DNA of 64,000 nt. Origin: Natronorubrum sediminis (lineage in GTDB: Archaea > Halobacteriota > Halobacteria > Halobacteriales > Natrialbaceae). Below the pieces are notes generated by a model. The model ran no database searches and was not told where the DNA came from. It was given only the letters and a program-made list of their open reading frames with translations. Both the position numbers and the translations under genes were made by a program. Shown piece by piece: positions 6,571 through 49,681 of this stretch (the stretch's first letter is position 1; every line of letters begins with the position of its first letter). Where the stretch lies: the NCBI RefSeq assembly GCF_900108095.1, contig NZ_FNWL01000002.1, forward strand, positions 354,748 to 418,747, in the 5' to 3' direction.

Positions 6571-8147
6571 CAGTCGTCACCTCCGCTACCGTCGGCAACC
6601 GCCTCGAGTTCGATATCGCCCGATTTGACCGCTTCCGTGAGTCGTGGGAGCACCTCGAAGAGGTCGCCCTCGAGGAAGTAATCCGAAAAGTCCCGTATTC
6701 GGGCGTCCGTATCCGTGTTGATCGCGACGATCGTGTCAGATTCGTCCATGCCGACTTTGTGCTGGACGGCACCGGAGACGCCGGCTGCAACGTACAACTC
6801 GGGGGCGACGACCTGCCCGGTTTCACCGATCTGGCGCTCTTCTTTCGAGTACTGCTCGACGTGGCCCTCGAACTGGTAGGACGAGGTGACGATCCCCCGC
6901 GTAATGCCGAGTTCGGCGTCTCCGAAGGCGTCGACGAGCTCGAGGCCGAGTTCCATTCCCTCGGTTGGGTCGTCCGCAATTCCGCGCCCGAGACAGACGA
7001 CCACCTCGTGGCCCGTGAGGTCGACGCCGGCCTCGAGTTGATCGTGTTCGGTGATCTCGACGCGGAACCACTCATCCTCGAGTTCCATGTCGTGTTCGAC
7101 GACGAGCCCGTCTCGCTCGTGATCTGGTTCGATGGGATCGAAGCTCCCCGGAATAATCGATGCACCCTGAGGATGGAATTCCCGGTTCGGGTTGTCGAGA
7201 CAGAGAATCGTCGAGTACTCGAAGCCCGAGAAGTCCGGGCGCTTCATGTGCAAGACCTTCTCGAAGGTCTTCTTGACGCCGGGTTCGCCGGTCTTGACGG
7301 GGTTCGAGACCACCTCTTCTTCGATGAAGAGGTCCGAACAGTCGGAGGCGAGCCCTGAATCGAGTTCGGCCTGCACCTTCGCCGAGAGGTCTCGGCCGTT
7401 GTTCGTCGCCGGGAACAGGATGTACCGCGGCTTGTCGTACTCCCGCCAGTCCGTACTCTCGACGGTTCCCTCACCGCGGGCCATGTGGGCCGAAATTTCG
7501 GTGTATGGCTTGTGGAGGAATCGCTCGAGACGGTCGTCGTCGTGATACACTGCGACGTCCGCGCCGTAAGCGATGCATTCCTCGGCGAGATCCTCGCAGT
7601 CGTCGCCCATCAAGAACGCGACGACCCGTTCCTCGTCACCGTAGTCGTCTGCAAACTGGTCCATCAGCCCCCTTGCCTTACCGAGCATCTCCCGCGAGAC
7701 CTCGAGTAACTCGCCTCGTTGGGTCTCACAGAAGACCCACATGTCCTCGTAGTGGCCGTTCGAAAGCGCGCGAACGTGTTTCTTATCTCGCGTTTGCTCG
7801 GCCGGTTCGGACTCGTCTTCGTCTTCCGACGCTGCCAGCTCCTCGTCTTCCGTCTCCGCCACCTCGTCGACTTCCTCGCCGTCGGCCTCTTCGCCGACGT
7901 CTTCTTTCGTCTCCTCGTACTCACCTTCGGTCTCAGTTCCGGCTTCGACGCCGTCGGTTTCGTCCGAGCCGATCTCGCCAGTCGCCTCGAGTCTGGCGTG
8001 GATCGCTTCCCGGGCCGTGTCCCGGTTTTGACCCGCCTGTTCGGCTTCGAGAATCGCCTGGAGTTCCGACGATTCCTCGATCGTCTCGAGTTGCTCGGTC
8101 AGTTCGTCGACGGTGTGTTCGTCGGGGTCGATTGCAGTCATAGTCAC
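6570..8147 (-). CDS. etfA: Electron transfer flavoprotein subunit alpha (FixB-type) with long acidic N-terminal extension
   Basis: A 525-residue protein, about 200 residues longer than common EtfA. The first ~55 residues form a helical module (HTVDELTEQLETIEES) followed by a very acidic linker rich in Glu/Asp and Thr/Ser up to about residue 125. The ETF alpha fold then follows, ending with the diagnostic FAD-binding signature PELYVAAGVSGAVQHKVGM near residue 455. EtfA and EtfB form the soluble heterodimer that shuttles electrons from acyl-CoA or other dehydrogenases to FixC. It overlaps etfB by 4 nt and fixC by 1 nt, so the operon is tightly coupled. Confidence 0.92.
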   Translation of the reverse strand: MTMTAIDPDEHTVDELTEQLETIEESSELQAILEAEQAGQNRDTAREAIHARLEATGEIGSDETDGVEAGTETEGEYEETKEDVGEEADGEEVDEVAETEDEELAASEDEDESEPAEQTRDKKHVRALSNGHYEDMWVFCETQRGELLEVSREMLGKARGLMDQFADDYGDEERVVAFLMGDDCEDLAEECIAYGADVAVYHDDDRLERFLHKPYTEISAHMARGEGTVESTDWREYDKPRYILFPATNNGRDLSAKVQAELDSGLASDCSDLFIEEEVVSNPVKTGEPGVKKTFEKVLHMKRPDFSGFEYSTILCLDNPNREFHPQGASIIPGSFDPIEPDHERDGLVVEHDMELEDEWFRVEITEHDQLEAGVDLTGHEVVVCLGRGIADDPTEGMELGLELVDAFGDAELGITRGIVTSSYQFEGHVEQYSKEERQIGETGQVVAPELYVAAGVSGAVQHKVGMDESDTIVAINTDTDARIRDFSDYFLEGDLFEVLPRLTEAVKSGDIELEAVADGSGGDD

Positions 8148-22185: not shown

Positions 22186-22260
22186 GGGTTGGTGATCTAG
22201 TCCGGTTATGATACCTCCTTCACACGGAGGAAGTCGGCAGTTCAAATCTGCCCCAACCCA
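22186..22260 (+). tRNA. tRNA-Val(CAC)
   Basis: A 75-nt cloverleaf with acceptor GGGTTGG/CCAACCC plus discriminator A, anticodon arm CCTCC-TTCACAC-GGAGG (anticodon CAC) and T arm GGCAG-TTCAAAT-CTGCC. It marks the junction between compact core genome and the lower-G+C accessory region, a common integration point for archaeal elements. Confidence 0.96.
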
Positions 22261-27612: not shown

Positions 27613-30600
27613 ATGGCAGACATCGACGGGGCATCCCGAGACGATATCGAAGCATTCGCCTCTGAACTCGTCGGGGATACTGTTGACCAAATCCGCGGGG
27701 CGCATATTGACGACGGTGAGCGTACCCCGCCTGGATTGACGCCGCGAACGAACTTTTTCTCTGGAGCTCTCGCTCCTGAGGAAGAAGACACGAAGATCGA
27801 TAAAGAAATCCAGTCACGGAGGTCGCCATCAACTCTCGGTCTGATTGGCCGCGTGACGACCGCTGATGGCGGTGACACAATCACCCTAAGCATCCGGTTA
27901 TCATTCTCTCTGTACTATCGGGTCATCCCGACACCGGCAGAGGTTGATCAGTTAGGCGAAGACACACCGACAGTATACCGGAAGTACGTTCTTCGGGAAC
28001 CCGGTGATGACGACGCTGACTTCGGTGTGGGTACAACCGTCTCGTTCGATGCCAATGCAGAGCACACCGGCATTCTCAGCGAGGCATCTGATAAAGCTGA
28101 GCGAGAGTTGAACAGGAAGATCCGAGCGGCTACCAAGGAGCACATCGAGTCTGCACCGGACCTGTTAGACAGCGATGGCGGATCCGTGAAGAACTTCGTG
28201 TCGAGCAATGATGACCTTGCCGACGATAACTACCTTGAGAAGCTCTCTGATGTACCTGTCGGCGGAGATCCGGAGTATGCTCCAACCCCGAAAATGGGGG
28301 TGACTGTTCGTCTTCTTGAAGGGCTTGATGAGACGACAGCAACAGCTGATAAGCCAGGTTCTGCTGTTGTCCGCGTTGACGTAACTAACAAAAGCGACGA
28401 AGAACCAGACTTCGGAGACCTCGACCTGGCAACATATGAAACCCAGCTAGAGTTACGAGGAGAAGACGGGACGGAGTTCCAATCAATGAGTTTCGAAGAC
28501 GTCCCTGAAGGATTCCGATATGATTCCTCCGTTCCTGGCCAAGGCCACAACTGCACTGCTGTCTGGACAGCGGATCAGACGGGCATCAAATCAGAAACTG
28601 TCCCTGTCCACAAGCAGGCGTACTTCGGTCACCGACAGTACTCCGGTGAAGCAGCACCACGGTTTGACACTCTCGCTACAGACCCGCTTCCGGTCCTGCG
28701 GGCAGTTCGCCAGAAATTGAAACAGTACAAAAAGGACGACTGGCAGGACCGTCTTGATGAAGCGAAAGCGACTGCCACAAACCCTTCGTCGAACCAGACT
28801 GTGGAGACAATCAAGTCTGATATAGAGCGGTTTGAACGGGAGATTGAGCGATTTGACCGCGGTGTTTCGCTTCTTGAAGAGGACCAAATGGCGCGGGAAC
28901 TCTTCAAACAGGTGAACCGCGTGTTCCTCCGTAAGGTTCGGAAAGGCGATCCATGGGATGAGAATGTGGAACTTGAATATCCGGGATGGCGGCCATTCCA
29001 GGTTGTCTTTATTGTATCCCTGTTGCCGGACATCGTCCACGAAGAGCGGGACTTCGATCCGAAGGCCCACGATCGTGACAAGGCAGACCTCCTGTACTTC
29101 CCGACTGGTGGAGGGAAAACTGAGGCCTACCTTGCACTGCTTGCCTTCACGGCACTATTCGACAGGCGGCGCGGGAAAGAGTTCGGCCTGTCCGCGATGA
29201 TGCGGTTCCCACTCCGGCTACTGTCGTTACAACAGTTCCAGCGAGTCGTCGAAATCTTGGTTCACGCAGATGAGGTCCGGAAAGAGGAGGGATATGGCGG
29301 TGAGCCTCTCAGTGCCGGATTCTTCACCGGGAACACGGAGAACAGTCTCGGTAACTTGCTGAAGTCCGAGTTCAACGGCTGGTACCCGAGTTATCCGCAG
29401 AACGAGAGAACGTTGGAGGAGAACCGCGAAAAACTGCGAGAGTTCAAGAAGCGATGGAACCAAGAAGACGGGCACGACCTTGAACAGGTAAGTCGTGAAG
29501 ACTACCGCGCAGTCGAAAAATGCCCGCTCTGCGGAAGTGACGTCGATCTCGTATTCAGTACAACGACTGATCGGGTCGAACATCACTGTTCGTCAGCATC
29601 CTGTCGTCGGGAAAAGCTACACGTCCATGTGACGGACATTGATCTCTATCGTGCTGTTCCAACGATCGTTGTTGGAACCCAAGACAAACTTGCAGCTCTC
29701 GGGTACAATTACCGTTTCCGAACGCTTGCTGGCTATATCACTCATCGGTGCCCGGAACACGGGTATACGCACCAAGGCGATGAGTGCATGATGTCGCGGT
29801 TCTGCGGCCGGGACAAGCAGGACTTCGAGACGGAGTTCGGTGATTTAGAGCAAGTTGACGTTCATGACCCCGTTCCAACACTCTGTCTGCAAGACGAACT
29901 CCACCTCGTCAACGAAGATCTCGGAACCTTCGAGAGCCACTACTACGCTGCCTTCGAAAAACACCTCGAATGGGCTGCTGAAAAGCAGGAAACCGACTAC
30001 TACGAACCCAAGAAGATAGCAGCGACAGCAACGATCGAGGAATCAAATAATCAGGTCAAGCATCTGTACGGCGGGAAAGAAACGATCCGGTTTCCCGCAC
30101 CCGGGCCGGACTATCGAGAATCCGCCTACACAACTACTGATGAAGACAAGGTCCAGCGGCACTACGTCGGTGTCGTTCCTTGGAACCGCAGCCAGATTAA
30201 CAGTATCATCCGATTGCTGGAAATGCACCAGCGCCGGATTCAAGACTGGCTTGCCGACCCCGAGAAATCTCTTCAGGAGTTCGACTTTGAAGAGTTGTCA
30301 GACCCAGAAACGTTCGAAAACCTCCTGAACCACTACTACACGCTGGTAACCTACGTCATCTCCAAATTTGAGGGAGGTCGTGTCTACAAGTCCGCTGAAA
30401 CTCAGGTGAACGACAATCTGACTGATGATGAATATAATCCCGTGCAGAAATTCGATATGCAGGGGAATACCGACCCAGATGCGATGGCCGACATGCTCAA
30501 CCGGTTTGAGCAGGTCGGTGAGGAAGGTGGTACGACGTACGAGGATATTGAGGGTCTGATTACTGCAACCAGTTCAATCAGTCATGGTGTGGACATTGAC

Positions 30601-31218
30601 GCCCTCGGTTACATGGTGTTCTTCAATGCGCCACCACGGATGTCGGAGTACATTCAGGCGTCCTCTCGCGTTGGTCGCAAACATCCAGGAATCGTGCTGG
30701 ACGTCTTCGACCCGCTGGGGGAGCGTGACCGGTCGCACTACCATTACTTCCACAAGTATCACGAATACCTCGACCGGCTCGTTGAACCAGTAGCGATTAA
30801 CCGGTGGGCGAAATTCAGTGTCGAGCGGACCTTCCCAGGCATCTTCATGTCGCTACTGTATATTCGGTACTTCGACGAGTTGAGCGAGCACCTCGGATAT
30901 TTCAAAAACAAAGCCCACCCGCGAATGGCCCGGAAGGCCGAACAGGCCGGTGTAATCGATCAAGACCAAATCATCGAGGACCTCATCGAGATCTACGGAG
31001 AAGACTGGGAGACTGGTCAGTGCCCGTTCGCAGACCGGATCGAGGAACTCGTTCAGGTTTCGTTCAATAACATCCAGAGCGGGACTGAAGAGGACATTGA
31101 GGGATGTCTCGCTGGACGAGTAATGTTGAGCCTCCGTGACGTAGACGACCCAATCGACATCAAACCGAGTTACAAACATGAAGACGCGTTCGAGGCCGTA
31201 GGGGTGGATATTCGATGA
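27613..31218 (+). CDS. drmA: DISARM helicase DrmA
   Basis: A 1201-residue superfamily 2 helicase. After a ~480-residue N-terminal region, the Walker A motif LYFPTGGGKTEAY is near residue 493. A zinc-binding insertion (KCPLCGSDVDLV ... CSSASC) lies near 635-665, the DEAD-box-like QDELH near 758 and the helicase motif VI QASSRVGRKHPG near 1016. DrmA pairs with DrmB as the DNA-loading core of DISARM, which recognises incoming phage DNA. Its stop overlaps drmB by 4 nt. Lower G+C than the core genome indicates horizontal acquisition. Confidence 0.88.
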   Translation: MADIDGASRDDIEAFASELVGDTVDQIRGAHIDDGERTPPGLTPRTNFFSGALAPEEEDTKIDKEIQSRRSPSTLGLIGRVTTADGGDTITLSIRLSFSLYYRVIPTPAEVDQLGEDTPTVYRKYVLREPGDDDADFGVGTTVSFDANAEHTGILSEASDKAERELNRKIRAATKEHIESAPDLLDSDGGSVKNFVSSNDDLADDNYLEKLSDVPVGGDPEYAPTPKMGVTVRLLEGLDETTATADKPGSAVVRVDVTNKSDEEPDFGDLDLATYETQLELRGEDGTEFQSMSFEDVPEGFRYDSSVPGQGHNCTAVWTADQTGIKSETVPVHKQAYFGHRQYSGEAAPRFDTLATDPLPVLRAVRQKLKQYKKDDWQDRLDEAKATATNPSSNQTVETIKSDIERFEREIERFDRGVSLLEEDQMARELFKQVNRVFLRKVRKGDPWDENVELEYPGWRPFQVVFIVSLLPDIVHEERDFDPKAHDRDKADLLYFPTGGGKTEAYLALLAFTALFDRRRGKEFGLSAMMRFPLRLLSLQQFQRVVEILVHADEVRKEEGYGGEPLSAGFFTGNTENSLGNLLKSEFNGWYPSYPQNERTLEENREKLREFKKRWNQEDGHDLEQVSREDYRAVEKCPLCGSDVDLVFSTTTDRVEHHCSSASCRREKLHVHVTDIDLYRAVPTIVVGTQDKLAALGYNYRFRTLAGYITHRCPEHGYTHQGDECMMSRFCGRDKQDFETEFGDLEQVDVHDPVPTLCLQDELHLVNEDLGTFESHYYAAFEKHLEWAAEKQETDYYEPKKIAATATIEESNNQVKHLYGGKETIRFPAPGPDYRESAYTTTDEDKVQRHYVGVVPWNRSQINSIIRLLEMHQRRIQDWLADPEKSLQEFDFEELSDPETFENLLNHYYTLVTYVISKFEGGRVYKSAETQVNDNLTDDEYNPVQKFDMQGNTDPDAMADMLNRFEQVGEEGGTTYEDIEGLITATSSISHGVDIDALGYMVFFNAPPRMSEYIQASSRVGRKHPGIVLDVFDPLGERDRSHYHYFHKYHEYLDRLVEPVAINRWAKFSVERTFPGIFMSLLYIRYFDELSEHLGYFKNKAHPRMARKAEQAGVIDQDQIIEDLIEIYGEDWETGQCPFADRIEELVQVSFNNIQSGTEEDIEGCLAGRVMLSLRDVDDPIDIKPSYKHEDAFEAVGVDIR

Positions 31219-33032
31219 CAGACAATATGCGTCGCGGGAAGATGCAAGTGATGTACAACTTCCCGCCAGGAGCGACCTTCTCCAATCCAAAACATAATCT
31301 CATTGAGAAGGCGGCGAAGATGACTGGCGACCAGATGGAAATCGCCAGTGAACGGGAGATGATCAACCATGTTCATGCCAAACTTGACAACTGGAGTGGC
31401 GGTGTTGAGGGTGCCTTATCGCCGCCAGCATCCGATCGGTGGGCAATCATCGATCCATCGAACGTGTACGCGACAATTTTCCCGCGCGTCTTCGAATGTA
31501 TGGACTGCGGAAAAGTCCACGATTACAGTGATGAACGTATCAAAGGGCTTGAGCAGAGTGGATTGAGTTGTCAACAGCAGGGGTGTGATGGGGCTCTCAC
31601 ACAGATCCACCACGTTGGTGTTTGCCCCTCCTGTTCAGATCTTAGCTCCATCTTTGTTCCGGGATGTGACGAGCACGGTTACTCGTACGTGAAGCTAGAT
31701 GACCGTGCAGACCGGTATCAGGATTTCAAGTGGCGGTGCGGTGCCTGCCAAGGAGCGATCATCAGCGATAATTTCCAGACGTTCTGTGAATGTGGTGAAC
31801 GGATGGACGTAACGGTTCATTCGTCGTCAAAGGCAATGAATATCCACGACGTCACTCGGGTTGACCTCGGTGATCGGAACATCTATCAGAGTAATATCCG
31901 GACCGAAGAAGAGATTGACCCGATTGTCATTGGTGCCTACCTTGGCGAGTTCGATCACCCCGAGACGAGCCTGAAGGAGATGGTGCAGAAGGACGGAATG
32001 TCGAATATCGACTTCGACGAGATCGATACCGACGACCCTGAGGTAATTAAACATACCAAGCAGGCCCTTGGACAGATCGGTGGTGATCAAGACCCTGAGC
32101 TGGTTCGTGAGATGGTTCAGGCGAAAGTCGGCGATGTTGAGCCGTCTGACAACATGCGGCGGTACATCCAGCTGAGGGAGATTATGGAACAGGAAAGCGC
32201 CCGGGAAACTGCAACTCCCCGAGAAACCCAGCTCATGGATCAGATGGGGATCATTGATATTGGAGTCACCTCCGAGTTCCCGCTGCTTAAAGCAGTATAC
32301 GGCTATCATCGCACCTATGACGACGAAGAAGAAGGCGGTTCAACACCTGCTGTGCGGACGTTTCCGCCAGTACAAGTTGAAGATGGAGACTGGCGCACGC
32401 CGATTTATACAACTCGGTCGAAGACAGAAGCCGCAATCGTCCAACTGGATCCTCGCCAAGTTGGCCACTGGCTCGCTGAGAGTGGATATCCCATCGAAGA
32501 CACGCAAAATATGGACCTTTCGGAGGCACGGGCGACACTGTACGGAGAAATGGAAGCCATAGAACCGTACTCAACCGATGTTAATGACGACAGTCAGTAT
32601 AACGAAATCACCCTCGCTGTGCATCGCTTACTGCATACTATCTCCCACCTGCTCATCCAGCGAGCTGCTGTCCATTCCGGGATTGACGAAACCTCATTCG
32701 CGGAATACCTGTTCACGGAAGGTCTCGCTACAGCAATCTACGCAAATAATACGCAGAACTATACGGCAGGCGGTCTCTTCACCTTGATTGATAGGAACCT
32801 CGACGACTGGTTGCTTAGCACACTGACGCAAGGAGAAGGTTGTATGTACGACTCCACGTGCGCCGATATTCGGGGTGGTGCTTGTCACGCCTGCCTCCAC
32901 ATGTCTGAAATTGGCTGTCAGCACTTCAATAAAAACCTCTCCCGGATCGCTCTCTACGGTGATCGGATCGCATCTGATGTGTCCGACGGGTTCTGGAAAC
33001 TAACTGGTGGACTTGGCGGAAAAAGCACCTAA
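31215..33032 (+). CDS. drmB: DISARM protein DrmB (DUF1998)
   Basis: A 605-residue protein with several cysteine pairs: ECMDCGKVH near residue 94, GVCPSCSDLSS near 136 and WRCGACQG near 175. The C-terminal DUF1998 region contains AVHRLLHTISHLLIQRAA near residue 474 and a second Cys/His cluster (CMYDSTCADIRGGACHAC) near residue 540. In characterised systems DrmB binds DrmA and supports DNA binding and ATPase activity. Translational overlap of 4 nt with drmA matches the obligate partnership. Confidence 0.88.
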   Translation: MTDNMRRGKMQVMYNFPPGATFSNPKHNLIEKAAKMTGDQMEIASEREMINHVHAKLDNWSGGVEGALSPPASDRWAIIDPSNVYATIFPRVFECMDCGKVHDYSDERIKGLEQSGLSCQQQGCDGALTQIHHVGVCPSCSDLSSIFVPGCDEHGYSYVKLDDRADRYQDFKWRCGACQGAIISDNFQTFCECGERMDVTVHSSSKAMNIHDVTRVDLGDRNIYQSNIRTEEEIDPIVIGAYLGEFDHPETSLKEMVQKDGMSNIDFDEIDTDDPEVIKHTKQALGQIGGDQDPELVREMVQAKVGDVEPSDNMRRYIQLREIMEQESARETATPRETQLMDQMGIIDIGVTSEFPLLKAVYGYHRTYDDEEEGGSTPAVRTFPPVQVEDGDWRTPIYTTRSKTEAAIVQLDPRQVGHWLAESGYPIEDTQNMDLSEARATLYGEMEAIEPYSTDVNDDSQYNEITLAVHRLLHTISHLLIQRAAVHSGIDETSFAEYLFTEGLATAIYANNTQNYTAGGLFTLIDRNLDDWLLSTLTQGEGCMYDSTCADIRGGACHACLHMSEIGCQHFNKNLSRIALYGDRIASDVSDGFWKLTGGLGGKST

Positions 33033-33041
33033 CTCGGGAAA

Positions 33042-33899
33042 ATGACGCTTGCAACACCGGCCCAATTCGTACAGTCTGTTCGAGCACATGAGATCGATCC
33101 AGTAGCCTTCTGTACGCACCTCCTCCATACTGCTGCGTCCGGTGAAGGGACTGTTGACCCTTCGCAGACGGCGGATGAATTCGGCATCCACCGAGAGGCT
33201 GCAAATCATCTTCATGATCTCGCATCTGAGTTTGGCCTTGTTGATTTCACATCTCAGGCGACTAACCGGGTCAGGGTAAATCGAAATGCAACGATCGAAT
33301 TCATCCAATTCCTTAACATATTTGATGAGTACATGACGCCATCCGAAGCCGAGTTACTCGCAAATAATGAGGTGCACGATGTTGAATTAAGCATCGCTGT
33401 ACCGAGTGGGTTCGATGGGAAATCAGCAGAGCTAATGGCGCGTCTCATTCGATTGGTCCGGAATGCCGAACGGGAGTTACTACTTGTCACTCCCTTCTTC
33501 ACCCGGTTTGGTGTGGATGTCTTCGTTGATCACCTCGCATCCGCGACTGACCGTGGTGTTGACATCACGCTCTTAACCAGAGACGTAACAGATAACCGTG
33601 AAAACGCAGACCACGTGGAACGGATTCGTGAAACAGTCCGCAGCAATGGAGACACATCTAATTTCCACGTCTATCAGTACGATTCACCCCACGGTCGTCT
33701 GCACGCCAAGACATTGATAGCAGACACCGAGATCGCATATGTGGGAAGTGCGAATCTTACGAATTATAGTCTCAAGGAGGCAATCGAGATTGGATTGATC
33801 GTCCGTGGGCCAGTTGTTGACGAGCTAACCGACTTCTTTGAGATAGTTCGCTGTTCTGCGAACACTCAAAAGTATTCGGAGGGGCCAACTCAGCCCTGA
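33042..33899 (+). CDS. drmC: DISARM protein DrmC (phospholipase D-like)
   Basis: A 285-residue protein with a winged-helix-like N-terminus (TADEFGIHREAANHLHDLASE) and a C-terminal PLD fold. One complete HKD motif is visible, HAKTLIADTEIAYVGSANLT near residue 220, where His and Lys would be catalytic for phosphodiester cleavage. DrmC proteins carry this PLD domain and may act as nuclease, although in some systems DrmC is dispensable. It starts 9 nt after drmB and ends 14 nt before the convergent glycosylase gene. Confidence 0.87.
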   Translation: MTLATPAQFVQSVRAHEIDPVAFCTHLLHTAASGEGTVDPSQTADEFGIHREAANHLHDLASEFGLVDFTSQATNRVRVNRNATIEFIQFLNIFDEYMTPSEAELLANNEVHDVELSIAVPSGFDGKSAELMARLIRLVRNAERELLLVTPFFTRFGVDVFVDHLASATDRGVDITLLTRDVTDNRENADHVERIRETVRSNGDTSNFHVYQYDSPHGRLHAKTLIADTEIAYVGSANLTNYSLKEAIEIGLIVRGPVVDELTDFFEIVRCSANTQKYSEGPTQP

Positions 33900-33913: not shown

Positions 33914-34690
33914 TTACAGTGGCTCAGTAAAGAGACAGCACGAGTTTAACGGGCACTCATTACACTTCGGATGAGGTTCGGTACAGATGAGTGCTCCAAG
34001 GTCAAGAAATGCGAAAGTGATCGAGCGAGCCAGCTCTGGAGTGTCCGGGATGAGTGTATCTACAAGTTCATAGACGGAGTCCTTCTTGTGCGGCTGGTTC
34101 GGCATTTGATACCCGAAAACCCGCTCAATAATCCGGGCAATATTCGAGTCAACAAGTGAGATGGGTTGATTAAACGCAAATAGCAGGCAGGCTCGTGCGG
34201 AATATGGCCCGACTCGCCATGGTTGTTGTAATGCATCAAGATCGGCTGGAACCGTTCCATCATATTGAGTTACACAGAGTTCTGCTGCCTCCTTCAGACT
34301 CCGAGTTCGCTGGTTTCCAAATCCGAGAGACTTGATTTGCGTATAAATCATTTCGTCGTTTGATTTCATAAGTGCATTTGGAGACGGGAAGCGATCGAAG
34401 AACCCCTCATAGATGTTTGCAACGGCATCTGCACGTGTGCGTTGGAGAAGAATTTCTGTCGCGTAGACACGCCAAGGGTCGGTTGTATGCCGCCATGGAT
34501 AATCTCGCCCAGAGCTGTCAAGCCAGTCGAGGAACTGGGGCATAGTGTAAATAAATGATTCAACACGGGGTGCAGGATCACCGGTAGTTCCCTCTGCAAG
34601 GTGGTCAGCAATTTCCTCTGCGTCAATCTGGCCCTCGTACTCTTCTACGGTTATTTCGGTTTTTCCGTATGGGAAGTCAAGTTCCATCAA
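33914..34690 (-). CDS. HhH-GPD DNA glycosylase of the MIG (T:G mismatch) type, DISARM-associated
   Basis: A 258-residue member of the endonuclease III/MutY superfamily. After a ~45-residue extension come the family segments YPWRHTTDPWRVYATEILLQ (65-83), a helix-hairpin-helix near 157-166 and a [4Fe-4S] motif of C236-x6-C243-x2-C246-x5-C252. The position used by Lys in EndoIII and Ser in MutY is Tyr163 (VGPYSA), and Asp181 follows. As I recall MIG.Mth, the thymine/uracil-G mismatch glycosylase, its key residues are Glu42, Tyr126 and Asp144; Glu79, Tyr163, Asp181 here have the same spacings of 84 and 18. It would restore C at deaminated 5mC next to the 5mC methyltransferase gene. Transcribed opposite to the operon. 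Confidence 0.85.
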   Translation of the reverse strand: MMELDFPYGKTEITVEEYEGQIDAEEIADHLAEGTTGDPAPRVESFIYTMPQFLDWLDSSGRDYPWRHTTDPWRVYATEILLQRTRADAVANIYEGFFDRFPSPNALMKSNDEMIYTQIKSLGFGNQRTRSLKEAAELCVTQYDGTVPADLDALQQPWRVGPYSARACLLFAFNQPISLVDSNIARIIERVFGYQMPNQPHKKDSVYELVDTLIPDTPELARSITFAFLDLGALICTEPHPKCNECPLNSCCLFTEPL

Positions 34691-34834
34691 TTATTGCCCC
34701 ATCTAGTCCCTCATCCCATAAGCACTTGTGTAATTGGGGTACCGTCTTCAGTTACGATGGCAGGAGAAACCCCGAGACAGGGGTTATTACACTAGTTATC
34801 GTTCTGGCCCTCCTCAGAAATCCTGGTCTTTTTA

Positions 34835-37108
34835 ATGTTGAGTGATAATACCCAGGTAATGGCCGATTCGTGGGAGGATATAGATACGCCGGAAATCCCT
34901 TCATGTCTGCTGGATTCATCAGATACTGAGTTCTCGTTACACCAGGAGTTCATCCTCCGCCATGTGGATTTTCTCATTGATGTGCTTACTGCTGAACAGT
35001 ACCACCACAACTGGCACCATCCAGCCGGTTGTCCAACGGCGACCCCGGAAACCCAATGTCGGAAGCGAAAATCCGATCAGCAATTTCCCTGTCGCTATGA
35101 GTCGCTCACCGAGAGTACCTCAGAAGCAATCTGTACCTGCGAAGATTCGCTCACGGGGAGTGATGATCCGTTAGATACCGTCGCAGCTGTTGCTATTGCA
35201 CCAGACGATCAGCCGCCGTCGCGGCGGTATTTTAACCGTGAATATCGACGGATAATTGCTAACTTACGGGATCAAATCGGAGTCTGGGATAAGATCGCCG
35301 AATTAGACGAGGACGAACTAGAGGCTGCACTTCTTAAGGCAACAAATCGACCAAGTATTAGTGATACTCGTATCACACGCCTGCAGAAGCTTGTTGACGT
35401 AGTAGCTGACGACGACCATACCGACGGTGTAACTCTTCGTGGACTTGGCGGATTGCGGTATTCGAGTTTCGCCGATCTGCTCGCCGAGTTCCCCGGGATA
35501 TCAAAATCGGATGCATGGTGGTTGATGCTTGTCGCGTTCGATAAACCCGTTTGGCCAAGCGATCCATTCGTTGACGGGCTCCTGTGCTCACTAGGGCTTC
35601 TATCACCAGATGAGTTGAGAGACGATACTGAACGCAGGGAAAGACTTGAAGAAGAACTTGCTCGACGTCAGATTCCGCAGTTACATCGAGCAGTCGCAGG
35701 ACATGCAGTCAAAGGGGGAATTGACTCATGTGGCGACGACTGCGAAATTCAAAAATTCCTTCTCACCCACCGTCTACGGAGGCAGAAACAAGAGAATTCG
35801 GGCCCCATCGTAGTGGATCTCTTCTCCGGTGCTGGAGGTCTATCACTTGGATTTGTACGTAACGATTGGACCGTTGAGTTAGCTATCGATAACGACAGGC
35901 ATGCTACAGACACCTACCGTCTCAATCATCCTGAGATCCCCCACGAAAAAATCGTGTGTGGAGATATTCGAACAGAGCTTGAGGAAGGACTCCTTGAACG
36001 AATTGACCGGGAACCTGATGTCATCGCCGGTGGACCACCTTGCCAGTCACTTTCACAGGCAGGGTATCGAGCGAGATTGGCGGATGATAGCGAGTATAAC
36101 ATCTTGGAGGATGATCGGACCGAGCTCTACGAAGAGTACGTGACTGCTGTTGAGCGATTACGCCCCAAGGCACTGGTGATGGAGAACGTAGAGGGTATGG
36201 CAAACGAGATTGGAGACACTGGAGTTCGTGTTGCCGATCTCGTGATTGACGCGCTCAACTCCATCGGTGCTGATGGGCACGGCTACACCTGCCATTACAG
36301 ACTTCTTGACTGTGCTGATTATGGAATCCCCCAACACCGGGAACGCATCTTCATTTTCGGGGTGCGGGATGACCTTGTGGGAGAAAATGACGATTCTATC
36401 ATTGAGGCCCTGTTCGAGCAGATTTCAGAAGTGGGGCCGACCGACGAAGTCACTCTGAAACAGGCGTTGTCCGGCTTGCCGAAACTCCGTCGAGGAGAGG
36501 GTGGACGAGTGGTTCCCGACAGCGTCCGTGGTACCCGGAGTGAGTATGTTGAAGAACACGAGCTGAGTACGGGGACCGAGTTATGTTATAATCATCAAGC
36601 GCGGGAACACCCGATGGAAAAAGACCAGACGCTGTTCGACGAAGCATTAGAACCGGGAGACACCGGTTGGGACGTGAAATATAGGAAAGATGGAAAATAC
36701 GCCGAGTTGATCGAGTATGACGTTGGGACTGAGGAGGACCCTCGATTCAAGGATAAATACCGAATGCTGGAGTGGACTGAGCCAGCACCGACAGTTGTCG
36801 CGCATCTCGCCAAAGACGCGAACAATTTCGTCCTTCCGGATTACTATGAGTACGCTCCAAATGTAACCGGAGAACCAGATAATCGACGGAATAGAGGAAT
36901 AACTCCCCGTGAAGCGGCACGTCTCCAATCCTTCCCCGATGATTACGTCTTCTTGGGACCATTCACTCACTGGTTCCGTCAAATTGGGAATGCAGTGCCA
37001 CCATTGATGGGGTGGCGAATTGCTGATGTCCTTCAGCAGCAACTCAATTCGGAACCGCCAGCTGTGTTCTCCTGTCGCTCCCCACAACAGGCCAGTACCG
37101 ACGACTAG
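34835..37108 (+). CDS. drmMII: DISARM cytosine-C5 methyltransferase DrmMII with N-terminal HhH-GPD-like domain
   Basis: A 757-residue protein. From about residue 325 it is a C5-cytosine methyltransferase: motif I VVDLFSGAGGLSLGF, motif IV GGPPCQSLSQ with the catalytic Cys near 402, motif VI ENVEG, motif VIII QHRERIFIFG and motif X IGNAVPPLMGW near the end. It would mark host DNA as self. Residues ~150-310 look like a degenerate HhH-GPD fold (LAEFPGISKSDAWW, then Asp in SDPFVDG), with Ser in place of the catalytic Lys and only a CGDDC Cys pair. ATG at 34859 is an alternative start, about 27 nt after a TATA-like tttttaatg. Confidence 0.88.
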   Translation: MLSDNTQVMADSWEDIDTPEIPSCLLDSSDTEFSLHQEFILRHVDFLIDVLTAEQYHHNWHHPAGCPTATPETQCRKRKSDQQFPCRYESLTESTSEAICTCEDSLTGSDDPLDTVAAVAIAPDDQPPSRRYFNREYRRIIANLRDQIGVWDKIAELDEDELEAALLKATNRPSISDTRITRLQKLVDVVADDDHTDGVTLRGLGGLRYSSFADLLAEFPGISKSDAWWLMLVAFDKPVWPSDPFVDGLLCSLGLLSPDELRDDTERRERLEEELARRQIPQLHRAVAGHAVKGGIDSCGDDCEIQKFLLTHRLRRQKQENSGPIVVDLFSGAGGLSLGFVRNDWTVELAIDNDRHATDTYRLNHPEIPHEKIVCGDIRTELEEGLLERIDREPDVIAGGPPCQSLSQAGYRARLADDSEYNILEDDRTELYEEYVTAVERLRPKALVMENVEGMANEIGDTGVRVADLVIDALNSIGADGHGYTCHYRLLDCADYGIPQHRERIFIFGVRDDLVGENDDSIIEALFEQISEVGPTDEVTLKQALSGLPKLRRGEGGRVVPDSVRGTRSEYVEEHELSTGTELCYNHQAREHPMEKDQTLFDEALEPGDTGWDVKYRKDGKYAELIEYDVGTEEDPRFKDKYRMLEWTEPAPTVVAHLAKDANNFVLPDYYEYAPNVTGEPDNRRNRGITPREAARLQSFPDDYVFLGPFTHWFRQIGNAVPPLMGWRIADVLQQQLNSEPPAVFSCRSPQQASTDD

Positions 37109-37640: not shown

Positions 37641-37820
37641 ATGAGAGACACTGGAGACGACCCGACCGTAACGATCGAACTCGCCATGACAGACGATACG
37701 GGCGAGCCCGGGATACTAACCTAAATCCAATCAATCAGTGTTGAAGACGAACCCACTGATCTGCTGAAACGACACCTTCGATCAGAGCATGGAATAATGG
37801 AGGACGTCCTCAATGAGTGA
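37641..37820 (+). pseudogene. Small gene with an in-frame stop, partner of the recombinase
   Basis: An ATG frame of 59 sense codons is interrupted once by TAA after residue 27 (…GEPGILT). The same frame then continues with acidic, plausible sequence (SVEDEPTDLLKRHLRSEHG) and ends at 37820, overlapping the downstream recombinase start by 8 nt. That overlap is the same as for the intact AbrB/recombinase pair at 49.7 kb, which is why I read it as one gene killed by a nonsense change. Family not recognised. Confidence 0.45.
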
Positions 37821-38545
37821 GACTGTCGCTGCATACGTCCGGTCAAGCACCGAAGGGCAGACAGTCCGACACCAGCGGGACGACATCCGTGACTGGGGCA
37901 ATCGTGAGGACATCAACTCCGACAGCATCGATTGGTACGTAGACTTTGCACAGTCAGGCGCTGATCCTGGGCGCGAGCAATTCGAGGACCTCATCAATTC
38001 GATGCACGCCGGCGCTTACGACGTCGTCGCAGTGTGGGAAATTAGCCGGTTAGCGCGACTTGGAAGCACCTACCAACAGTTTTTCGAGGTGGCAGAGGAG
38101 TCAGAGACGATCGTCCAATCGCAGACGGATGGGTCGATGAAGTCCGTCCCGGTGGGAGCGGGAAACTAATCGCCGACATCTCAGTTGCAGTCGCAGAGGA
38201 AGAACGACGACAACTGATTTTGCGAGTAGAGTCCGGTGTTCGGCGTGCCCGGTCGGAAGGGAAGTGGCTTGGCGAGGAACCGATCGAATTCACACGAAAT
38301 GAAGAGGGATACCTTCGACCGAACCTCTCCCCCAGCGAAGGCGAAGACGGATACCTGAAGTCCGGAACGCGTTCGAAGCGATCGAGACCGGGAGCAGCTA
38401 CCGCGCGGGAGCGCGAAGGGTCAACACGATGCACCAAACCCTCAGCCGCATCCATCAGGACGAGGAACGGCGATCGTGGTATCTCGATGCGACCGCAGAC
38501 GACGAGCGGGTCGAGGAAGCGCTGACCGTCGTTCCTACAAAATAG
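37813..38545 (+). pseudogene. Serine recombinase (resolvase family), frameshifted
   Basis: The first frame encodes a resolvase N-terminal domain: VAAYVRSSTEGQTVRHQRDD, with the nucleophilic Ser near residue 12, and WEISRLARLGST. It stops early at 38169. The continuation KLIADISVAVAEEERRQLIL lies in another frame, and the C-terminal part VRNAFEAIETGSSYRAGARR to the end at 38545 lies in a third. Two frameshifts therefore separate catalytic, linker and HTH regions, so the enzyme is inactive unless recoded. Confidence 0.82.
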
Positions 38546-38832: not shown

Positions 38833-40770
38833 CTACTCTATGTCGAAGTACTCTCTTGCCTGCCGATCAATTTCGACCAATATCTCACATCGAGCTGGGT
38901 TCACGATGTCTTCACCACTCCCTGCTTTATCAGCAAGCCTCTGAGCAAGAGTGGTCTTTTGAACAGGCGCATACCCCTGTTCTTCACACCATTCCTGCAC
39001 CGCATTATCCCGACCATGATCCGGCAAATTGTCAGGAGTAAGCACCTCACCAATATCATGAAAGCTGTCAGACTGCCAGTACCCCAGCTCCTCATTAACA
39101 GCCTCAACATATACTTCTAAATCAACTAAATCCTCCAAAACTAACGGCTCATCCCGGCCAGCATTATAAGAAAATATCTGTTCCTCATCCACTCCACGTC
39201 CAATCAATCCCTCTTCATACTCGTTCCCTGCCTCATCTCCATCGACAATAAACGCGGTACGCCCGCTCTCAGATAACAAGTCGCCCAGATCATCCGAATC
39301 AGCTGTAGACAAACCAGGCGCAACTTGATACTTTAATTCAGTTCGTCCTGTAGCACCTCTAATCAGCGACGGAAGCAAGATACACTCACACGGGCCTTCC
39401 CCAATCAGCACGTTCCGAGAAACTGTGAACGCAAACGAACTTAACCCCATTGCCATCATCAGAGGAGAGAATCCCTCTCCTTCCCTCCAAAACCCGTTTT
39501 TGATATTGCTCTTTTCTTCATCCTCATCAGGGATAATGGGGCGAATCCCCCTACCCAGATCGGAAGGAAGACATCCTGCGGAATGCGTAGTATAGATCAC
39601 TGTGTTAGCAAGATCCTGCGATTCAAGAACCTCAATAAGGCTTGCCTGAGCGTCATAGCTCAGATGTTGCTCAGCCTCATCAACAAGAAGAACCGGATCT
39701 TCACCTGCATCCTTGGTATTGAGAAACGCCAACAACGCAATAAACCAACGTAACCCATCGCTCCGATCTTCAATTGGCGAATGCCGATGCTCATCTTGCG
39801 TTTGAGTATGTAGGTGCAGAACTGTGTCGTCAATATCTATTACAGGAACTACCTCTTTTTGAACCCATGACTTAGAGAATTCAGATTCCAGCTTCCGAGT
39901 TGCATCGGTTGTGAGTGTATACACACGAGGTCTATCACCGTTTTCCGCAGCTTCAAGCAATTCGTCAAGATCAAGATCTGCTAATTCAGCCAGGTTCTCT
40001 AAAGCATCTGGGTAGTTACCGCTGTGCTTTTCCAAGTCGTACTGGTTTTTCAATTGCCGGTCCTCTTCGGTAAAAGAGATGAATTGCGGTCTTTCCTGTT
40101 TCAAGAGTTCTCTGGCACGGTGAGGAGGACATTGCTTTTCATGTTCTGCCAATTTCTTCAGTTCTTGTCCTACTTTGATAATCTCATTATCGTGTTCTGT
40201 GCTCTCGTCTGATTGCTTGATTACCTCGACAAGGTCTGATCCGAGTTTAGAAATTGTCTCTATCGTGTCGTCCCCGAGATAGTCTTCATCGCTCCTGAAC
40301 ACTTCTTGCAACTTCTTTATCCTACTTGACCTTCTTTTTCTCTTCTTCCTCCCTCCTCTATCGTCCAGCAGTTCAATGCCTTCTATGTTCTCTAAGGATT
40401 TTATTGCATTTCGTCGTGGCTCTAGGTTGTGAGGTAGAGTGGTATCTAGAGCAACGGTTAGATCGCCATCTGCATCCTTTGTGAGAGTCCACTCTGAAAT
40501 GTTCTCAGCTCCCTCAATACTGCTGAGTTTTGCTTGATCATCTTCATCAAGTTTGAACGTAACGGAGAGTTCGGGTTGGCAGTCTTTGTGCCTTGTAGCA
40601 TCGTATTCTGAAATTGGTTCGTCGCTGTTGAGTTCTTCCAATGCATCGAGGAAAGAGCTTTTTCCTGCTTCATTTGTGCCAACCACAGCAATGAGATTCT
40701 CGTTTAGCCGGATATTGGATGGGTCGGCGAAACGCCTGTAGCAGTGAACGCTGGCGTTCCTAAGTTCCAT
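38833..40770 (-). CDS. OLD-like ATPase with C-terminal TOPRIM nuclease domain
   Basis: A 645-residue ABC/SMC-type ATPase. The N-terminal RecF-like part has Walker A GTNEAGKSS at residues 31-39. A charged helical, probably coiled-coil region spans ~150-270, and the Walker B VLLVDEAEQHLS lies near residue 370. The C-terminal third shows TOPRIM motifs NVLIGEGPCEC (Glu) and AFIVDGDEAGNEY (DxD-like), typical of OLD-family nucleases that act in anti-phage defence alone or with a helicase partner. No Gabija-type GajB helicase gene is adjacent, so it looks like a stand-alone OLD. Its base composition is the most A+T-rich in the window, a sign of transfer. Confidence 0.85.
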   Translation of the reverse strand: MELRNASVHCYRRFADPSNIRLNENLIAVVGTNEAGKSSFLDALEELNSDEPISEYDATRHKDCQPELSVTFKLDEDDQAKLSSIEGAENISEWTLTKDADGDLTVALDTTLPHNLEPRRNAIKSLENIEGIELLDDRGGRKKRKRRSSRIKKLQEVFRSDEDYLGDDTIETISKLGSDLVEVIKQSDESTEHDNEIIKVGQELKKLAEHEKQCPPHRARELLKQERPQFISFTEEDRQLKNQYDLEKHSGNYPDALENLAELADLDLDELLEAAENGDRPRVYTLTTDATRKLESEFSKSWVQKEVVPVIDIDDTVLHLHTQTQDEHRHSPIEDRSDGLRWFIALLAFLNTKDAGEDPVLLVDEAEQHLSYDAQASLIEVLESQDLANTVIYTTHSAGCLPSDLGRGIRPIIPDEDEEKSNIKNGFWREGEGFSPLMMAMGLSSFAFTVSRNVLIGEGPCECILLPSLIRGATGRTELKYQVAPGLSTADSDDLGDLLSESGRTAFIVDGDEAGNEYEEGLIGRGVDEEQIFSYNAGRDEPLVLEDLVDLEVYVEAVNEELGYWQSDSFHDIGEVLTPDNLPDHGRDNAVQEWCEEQGYAPVQKTTLAQRLADKAGSGEDIVNPARCEILVEIDRQAREYFDIE

Positions 40771-48931: not shown

Positions 48932-49681
48932 TCATGTGATCTCTGGCCCAACGATGGTCAACTCAAACCCGAGTTTTGCCCCATCCGCAACTGCCTCGTA
49001 CTGCTCACGTCGATTGATGAGTTTACCGATAGTCGGCGGACTCCACGGGACCTCTTCAGCAATCGATCGGTACGTTTCGCCTGCGTCTCGTAACTCGTAG
49101 ACGCGGAGGACATCGTCAATCTTCCTCTCATCCGCAACGAGAAACTGCTTGTTCTCATCGAACCTAAGTGCGGCTGGAGGCTCCCCGTGATAGTATCCGG
49201 CATCTGTGCGACGATTGGTTTCTTCGATGCTTTTCTCGATGTACCGTCGCATCGCTTTGTGTTCGGTCGCTGCCTGTAAGAGTTCGATAGCAACGTTCAT
49301 CGGATCGTCAAGATCTAACGCGCCGGTTGCCGTGTCGTGAAGTTCCACACCAGTGCTGCGACACGACAGGATCAGATCCATTGTGTCGTCAAAGTCGCGT
49401 GCAAACCGGCGCTTTCCGTCGGCAACGATCAAATCTGCTTCGCTGTTTTTGATTCGTTCAACAATTTGTCCGTATTCGCCTCGATCAGCGGTGCTGAATC
49501 CGCTGGACCATCGACCATCATCGAAAATCCTGTTCAGAACGACTGGCGGGTGGTCGTCACGGTTGTTCAGCTTGTTGATGTACTCTCGAATCTTTTCTTT
49601 CTGACGTGGAATGCTGCGGTCGCTGTCCTGGGACAGTCGAGTGTACCCGTCTGCGACTAGTGGTTTCTGCCCGTCAGTCAT
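48932..49681 (-). CDS. Serine recombinase (resolvase family), apparently intact
   Basis: A 249-residue site-specific recombinase. The N-terminal catalytic domain has YTRLSQDSDRSIPRQKEKI with the nucleophilic Ser near residue 17, then LIVADGKRRFARDFDDTMDL with the conserved Arg pair. A linker helix (EHKAMRRYIEKSIEET) and a C-terminal HTH (RSIAEEVPWSPPTIGKLIN) complete the enzyme. It would invert, resolve or integrate DNA of its own element. It overlaps the AbrB-type gene by 8 nt and is translated after it. The related cassette at 37.6-38.5 kb is dead. Confidence 0.87.
   Translation of the reverse strand: MTDGQKPLVADGYTRLSQDSDRSIPRQKEKIREYINKLNNRDDHPPVVLNRIFDDGRWSSGFSTADRGEYGQIVERIKNSEADLIVADGKRRFARDFDDTMDLILSCRSTGVELHDTATGALDLDDPMNVAIELLQAATEHKAMRRYIEKSIEETNRRTDAGYYHGEPPAALRFDENKQFLVADERKIDDVLRVYELRDAGETYRSIAEEVPWSPPTIGKLINRREQYEAVADGAKLGFELTIVGPEIT

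Follow-up and report, generated by a model that had tools for sequence, protein, structure and literature searches.

MIG.Mth (Mig.MthI, PDB entry 1kea), encoded on the Methanothermobacter plasmid pFV1, is described in PMC2714593, in a passage citing Horst and Fritz 1996, as removing thymine from T:G mismatches. Its gene is accompanied on pFV1 by genes for a C5-cytosine methyltransferase and an NgoPII-type restriction enzyme, i.e. a Type II restriction-modification (R-M) system; the enzyme type has been known since 1996, and so has a link to C5-methyltransferases been recorded. A different partner system is found in the window, i.e. the whole 64,000-nucleotide stretch of Natronorubrum sediminis analysed here, which contains a DISARM locus (defence island system associated with restriction-modification) closest to class 2 (drmE, drmA, drmB, drmC and drmMII). 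Like class 2 loci, it encodes the core proteins and a 5-methylcytosine (5mC) methyltransferase, but it adds a reverse-strand glycosylase gene and an EndoIII-like N-terminal domain fused to the methyltransferase. The glycosylase is probably a monofunctional T:G/U:G mismatch glycosylase of MIG type, acting as repair partner to the 5mC methyltransferase of DISARM. In this it would resemble Vsr, whose gene lies beside those of Dcm-type methyltransferases and which is likewise associated with T:G repair at 5mC sites, but Vsr has an unrelated fold and is a strand-nicking endonuclease.

The glycosylase gene corresponds to the open reading frame (ORF) at 33914-34690 on the reverse strand, between drmC and the methyltransferase gene, as stated in the initial annotation. 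Translation could begin with a TTG at 34690, but the protein most likely has 257 residues, since the second codon is an ATG and the starts of the orthologs fall about there. Indeed, the protein shows (i) a Pfam HhH-GPD match (7.5e-17), (ii) a catalytic trio E78, Y162 and D180 with spacings of 84 and 18, equivalent to the previously reported Glu79, Tyr163 and Asp181 once the ATG is taken as the start, and (iii) the announced [4Fe-4S] site, with ligands C235-X6-C242-X2-C245-X5-C251, the four cysteines being invariant. It shares the trio with these spacings, the [4Fe-4S] site, a six-residue loop and a nearby C5-methyltransferase with MIG.Mth, from which it differs by its sequence (about 35% identity) and by an N-terminal extension of about 45 residues (LPFGRT...) that is present throughout its clade. 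The polypeptide ends after the iron-sulfur motif and, as in MIG.Mth, the C-terminal 8-oxoguanine (8-oxoG) recognition domain of MutY is not present.

Sequence and structure comparisons support assignment to the MIG type. In a search of all PDB sequences, 1kea ranked first (E 5.7e-40, versus 5.8e-33 for MutY), and the same ranking is obtained with a profile of eight orthologs (2.2e-51 versus 5.2e-40). The structural comparison to MIG proposed earlier gave a concordant result: 1kea is the top fold match of the AlphaFold model (predicted local distance difference test, pLDDT, 84), with a template modelling score of 0.86 on the target, a root-mean-square deviation of 1.8 and 35% identity. An adenine glycosylase of MutY type, acting on A:G and A:8-oxoG and present in the defence island by chance, would have the same fold and the same Glu/Tyr/Asp, and the best NCBIfam model is indeed mutY, yet far under its cut-off (158.7 versus 286.5 bits). 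This alternative is improbable: the 8-oxoG-reading domain is missing, the genome encodes a separate MutY of 341 residues, and the specificity residues, loop length, tree position and methyltransferase linkage described below all differ from those of MutY.

For this comparison, 25 MutY-type proteins were used (16 long MutY and nine short haloarchaeal MutY-like proteins). All of them carry the same residues as MIG E42, Y126 and D144, and the tyrosine at the EndoIII lysine position, which the initial annotation had taken together with Glu and Asp as a mark of MIG, was rejected as a marker. The spacing of 84 retains its value and separates MIG from MutY, owing to a one-residue insertion that MutY does not have. 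The GFxNxR loop has six residues in 43/43 proteins of the MIG-type groups and five in 25/25 MutY-type proteins. Changing MIG positions 50 and 187 to Val and Gln shifted preference from T/G to A/G (Fondufe-Mittendorf 2002, as cited in PMC2714593). The MIG residues A50 and L187 correspond to A86 and F225 in the window glycosylase, the first being identical and the second likewise hydrophobic; the 18-member clade of the latter has Gly, Ala or Ser and Leu or Phe at these positions (Leu at 187 in 14 of 18), whereas the long MutY proteins have Leu or Val and Asn or Gln, and the short ones mostly Ala and His. In the phylogenetic tree, the window protein belongs to an 18-row clade (support 100/100). 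This clade groups with a second clade from haloarchaea (15 rows, 99/96), MIG.Mth and bacterial methyltransferase-linked enzymes (92/89), and MutY is separate (99/97); some long branches are involved in the deepest placements, which are to be read with caution.

The initial annotation had associated the gene with DrmMII on the basis of this single locus and named, as a refuting outcome, that the two never meet elsewhere; the association clearly recurs. A profile search of 392 Halobacteriales genomes found close orthologs in 21, of which 18 are intact, followed by a clear score gap. Seventeen of these 18 are head-to-head (divergent) with a C5-methyltransferase gene, across several families, and in the sole exception (genome G283) the gene abuts drmA. 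The gene lies in or beside DISARM in 13 of the 21 genomes. DrmA is encoded in 48 of the 392 genomes, and a MIG-type gene was found in the surroundings of 26 of these 48 loci (fetched stretches reached up to about 17 kb): 13 belong to the window clade (two as fragments), 11 to the second clade and two to others. Such a gene is present in 24 of 42 DISARM loci with a C5-methyltransferase versus two of six without one in the fetched stretch, numbers too few for a comparison. Intact glycosylase genes whose partner methyltransferase has the N-terminal extension of the window type are all in or beside DISARM; most intact window-clade genes with other partners belong to Type II R-M contexts, and at the two loci where the flanking genes were scanned, nucleases resembling EcoRII-C, BsaWI or XcyI are encoded. 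Comparable glycosylase-methyltransferase pairs occur in Caldicellulosiruptor, Thermus, Alisedimentitalea, Haloplanus, Halobaculum and Halomicrobium. No relative was found in a single-sequence scan of GTDB contigs, nor in viral contigs.

These data bear on whether a repair gene and DISARM are merely co-resident in mobile islands. The low G+C content of the island, the optional nature of the gene and the position of the second-clade genes, which are separated from drmA by 6-13 kb containing further candidate defence genes, would fit such a chance passenger. It is nevertheless very improbable, because the divergent order with the methyltransferase is shared by 17 of the 18 intact orthologs, no comparable linkage is seen for the MutY-type paralogs whose surroundings were retrieved, and the order drmE-A-B-C-(reverse gene)-methyltransferase recurs in Halomicrobium katesii (G268, L158), where an assembly gap lies near the glycosylase start. 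For the second clade, the link to DISARM looks looser than for the window clade, since its direct partner is a C5-methyltransferase and the candidate system PDC-M33 intervenes between that methyltransferase and drmC. In second-clade loci and relatives (L066 3021-8600, L058 and L060), the MIG and C5-methyltransferase genes adjoin DUF6339 genes near DISARM; those of L066 are the PDC-M33 candidate defence genes.

The pair is inherited together. Pairwise identities of glycosylase and methyltransferase, compared at nine loci, are correlated (Mantel r 0.82, p 0.0002), and the value for glycosylase and DrmA is lower (r 0.68). The pair also appears to be mobile between DISARM cores, since the methyltransferase of Halorhabdus salina is 60% identical to that of the window, versus only 35% for DrmA. 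In Halapricum hydrolyticum (G330), the DISARM locus is kept, with a DrmA 92% identical, but the glycosylase gene is reduced to its two ends between drmC and the methyltransferase gene (L085, approximately 7690-8114), on either side of an internal deletion of about 636 bp with a two-base microhomology at the junction. This deletion is most simply a loss, given that relatives possess the gene. Together with six DISARM loci that have a window-type methyltransferase and no intact glycosylase gene, this natural deletion indicates that the glycosylase is an optional accessory of the methyltransferase and not a core DISARM part. The earlier suggestion of a MIG-type repair component in this DISARM is supported, on stronger evidence than the initial annotation had, except that the gene, also found with Type II R-M systems, is no core component and that its T:G activity is predicted.

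The position among DISARM genes could also suggest an effector, i.e. a base-excision restriction enzyme or helper attacking phage DNA (uracil-containing, 5mC-containing or otherwise modified) and leaving apurinic/apyrimidinic (AP) sites for the DISARM nucleases. Restriction glycosylases are known (PabI, PMC10273834), and PADLOC files the family under Type II nicking endonucleases; this name derives from MIG.Mth itself, which model PDLC03398 matches end to end (533 bits). PDLC03398 will consequently misname MIG-type genes and would mislead the functional reading of defence loci. An effector role is unlikely, as Tyr in place of Lys speaks against strand cutting by a lyase, members of the same clade accompany Type II R-M systems already equipped with a nuclease, and inheritance tracks the methyltransferase more closely than DrmA.

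In the favoured repair scheme, DrmMII would place 5mC on host DNA, and deamination of 5mC would yield T:G, from which the MIG-type glycosylase would flip out and excise thymine at DrmMII sites. Host AP endonuclease, polymerase and ligase would then rebuild C:G, which DrmMII could remethylate, so that C-to-T mutation would be prevented and the self-marks restraining DrmAB maintained. Since DrmAB is stimulated by unmethylated DNA (PMC9142583), repair would also protect self-marking. Marking with 5mC causes mutations, and the loss of a mark exposes a cell with DISARM to the further risk of self-attack. The glycosylase and methyltransferase genes would form a divergent two-gene module that moves among DISARM subtypes and Type II R-M systems and is subject to loss. 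Family, specificity residues, linkage, co-inheritance and loss are read directly in the sequences; T:G activity, site preference and an effect on fitness are predictions.

Several points weigh against this scheme. Halophiles may have further G:T repair, e.g. NucS/EndoMS. No intact MIG-type gene is found near 22 of the 48 DISARM loci, and the Halapricum locus persists without one. Moreover, position 187 is Phe in the window protein and not Leu as in MIG.Mth, and changes at V45/Q182 did not confer T:G excision on E. coli MutY (PMC2714593), which makes the residues at positions 50 and 187 necessary hints and not proof.

The methyltransferase itself carries an N-terminal domain related to glycosylases. 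With a profile of 16 such domains, a PDB search yielded EndoIII-1 of Deinococcus (E 3.8e-5), and each of the 16 matched NF053634, an NCBIfam model for monofunctional glycosylases (best 9e-8). When the profile was compared with that of the MIG family, E was 4e-4 and the probability only 35%, the Asp of the domain being aligned with the MIG catalytic Asp. Four invariant cysteines precede the EndoIII-like domain. The assignment rests on profile evidence, as the AlphaFold model of the whole methyltransferase is poor (pLDDT 57) and was excluded from the fold search. Because none of the 16 domains has the catalytic Lys and the Asp, kept in 14, is replaced in two (Asn in L096, Gly in L071), the domain is more likely DNA-reading than cutting. 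It is conceivable, though rather doubtful, that it belongs to a methylation-upkeep module, in which it would read or flip T:G or hemimethylated sites, hand over to the MIG-type glycosylase and couple repair to remethylation, averting self-attack by DrmAB on mark loss. In the searches made, no group other than haloarchaea showed the fused form, the genome set not having been scanned for this domain; at the DISARM loci retrieved from the 392 genomes, every fused-form copy is near drmA.

In the open literature, subscription journals being outside the search, neither a glycosylase in DISARM (in agreement with the initial annotation) nor a glycosylase-fold domain on a DISARM methyltransferase was found described, and the recurrent DISARM place of the MIG-type gene appears to be undescribed. 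With a recurrent putative repair accessory, and a near-identical locus from which it has been deleted naturally, what epigenetic self-marking costs becomes directly testable in culturable haloarchaea.

The features of the locus, whose order is drmE-like, drmA, drmB, drmC, glycosylase (reverse) and C5-methyltransferase, are listed in Table 1. The class 2 parts drmA, drmB, drmC and DrmMII were all found. The drmE-like protein matches Pfam DrmE_C just below the cut-off (1.1e-5) and the NCBIfam model below its cut-off (1.6e-10), and an ortholog occupies the same place in Halomicrobium katesii and Halapricum hydrolyticum. The methyltransferase could start at 34835 or, more likely according to alignment with the Halapricum locus, at the position tabulated.

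Table 1. Features of the DISARM locus in the window
Feature	Position	Strand	Remarks
drmE-like, 1328 aa	23574..27560	+	weak family match
drmA helicase	27613..31218	+	family match
drmB (DUF1998-type)	31215..33032	+	family match
drmC (PLD nuclease)	33042..33899	+	family match
MIG-type HhH-GPD [4Fe-4S] DNA glycosylase gene	33914..34687	minus	257 aa, ATG at 34687
Divergent intergenic region, glycosylase/methyltransferase	34688..34858	.	TATA-like stretches on both strands, by inspection only
C5-cytosine methyltransferase, DrmMII-like, 749 aa	34859..37108	+	DNA_methylase 4.3e-58, DrmMII 8.8e-65
Methyltransferase N-terminal extension, ~310 aa	34859..35800	+	Cys-rich start, then EndoIII/HhH-GPD-like domain

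The locus lies inside a stretch of about 52% G+C, the adjoining sequence having 60-65%. A tRNA-Val gene (22186-22260), located where the G+C content falls from about 63% to 53%, is likely the island boundary. Further on, the same island encodes an AAA ATPase (38833-40770) that matches AriA/GajA/OLD-type defence ATPases, and two island ORFs (37813-38169 and 48932-49681) resemble resolvase/recombinase genes, as judged by eye. In R-M settings, a small protein is encoded beside MIG genes (L042 10824-11270; L067 9085-9531; L043 10807-11226); the L042 protein weakly matches the EVE domain, a modified-base reader, and the L043 copy has no Pfam match. Among the bacterial DISARM-like plasmid loci viewed, one of which is without gene annotation, an annotated Vsr gene was seen only on a plasmid of Roseomonas sp. 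OT10 (L172 7925-8308), near a DISARM-like set of drmA, drmB and a C5-methyltransferase gene. This Vsr is possibly a functional counterpart of the glycosylase in bacteria, and is a lead only, since another C5-methyltransferase gene and an HNH gene are also nearby.
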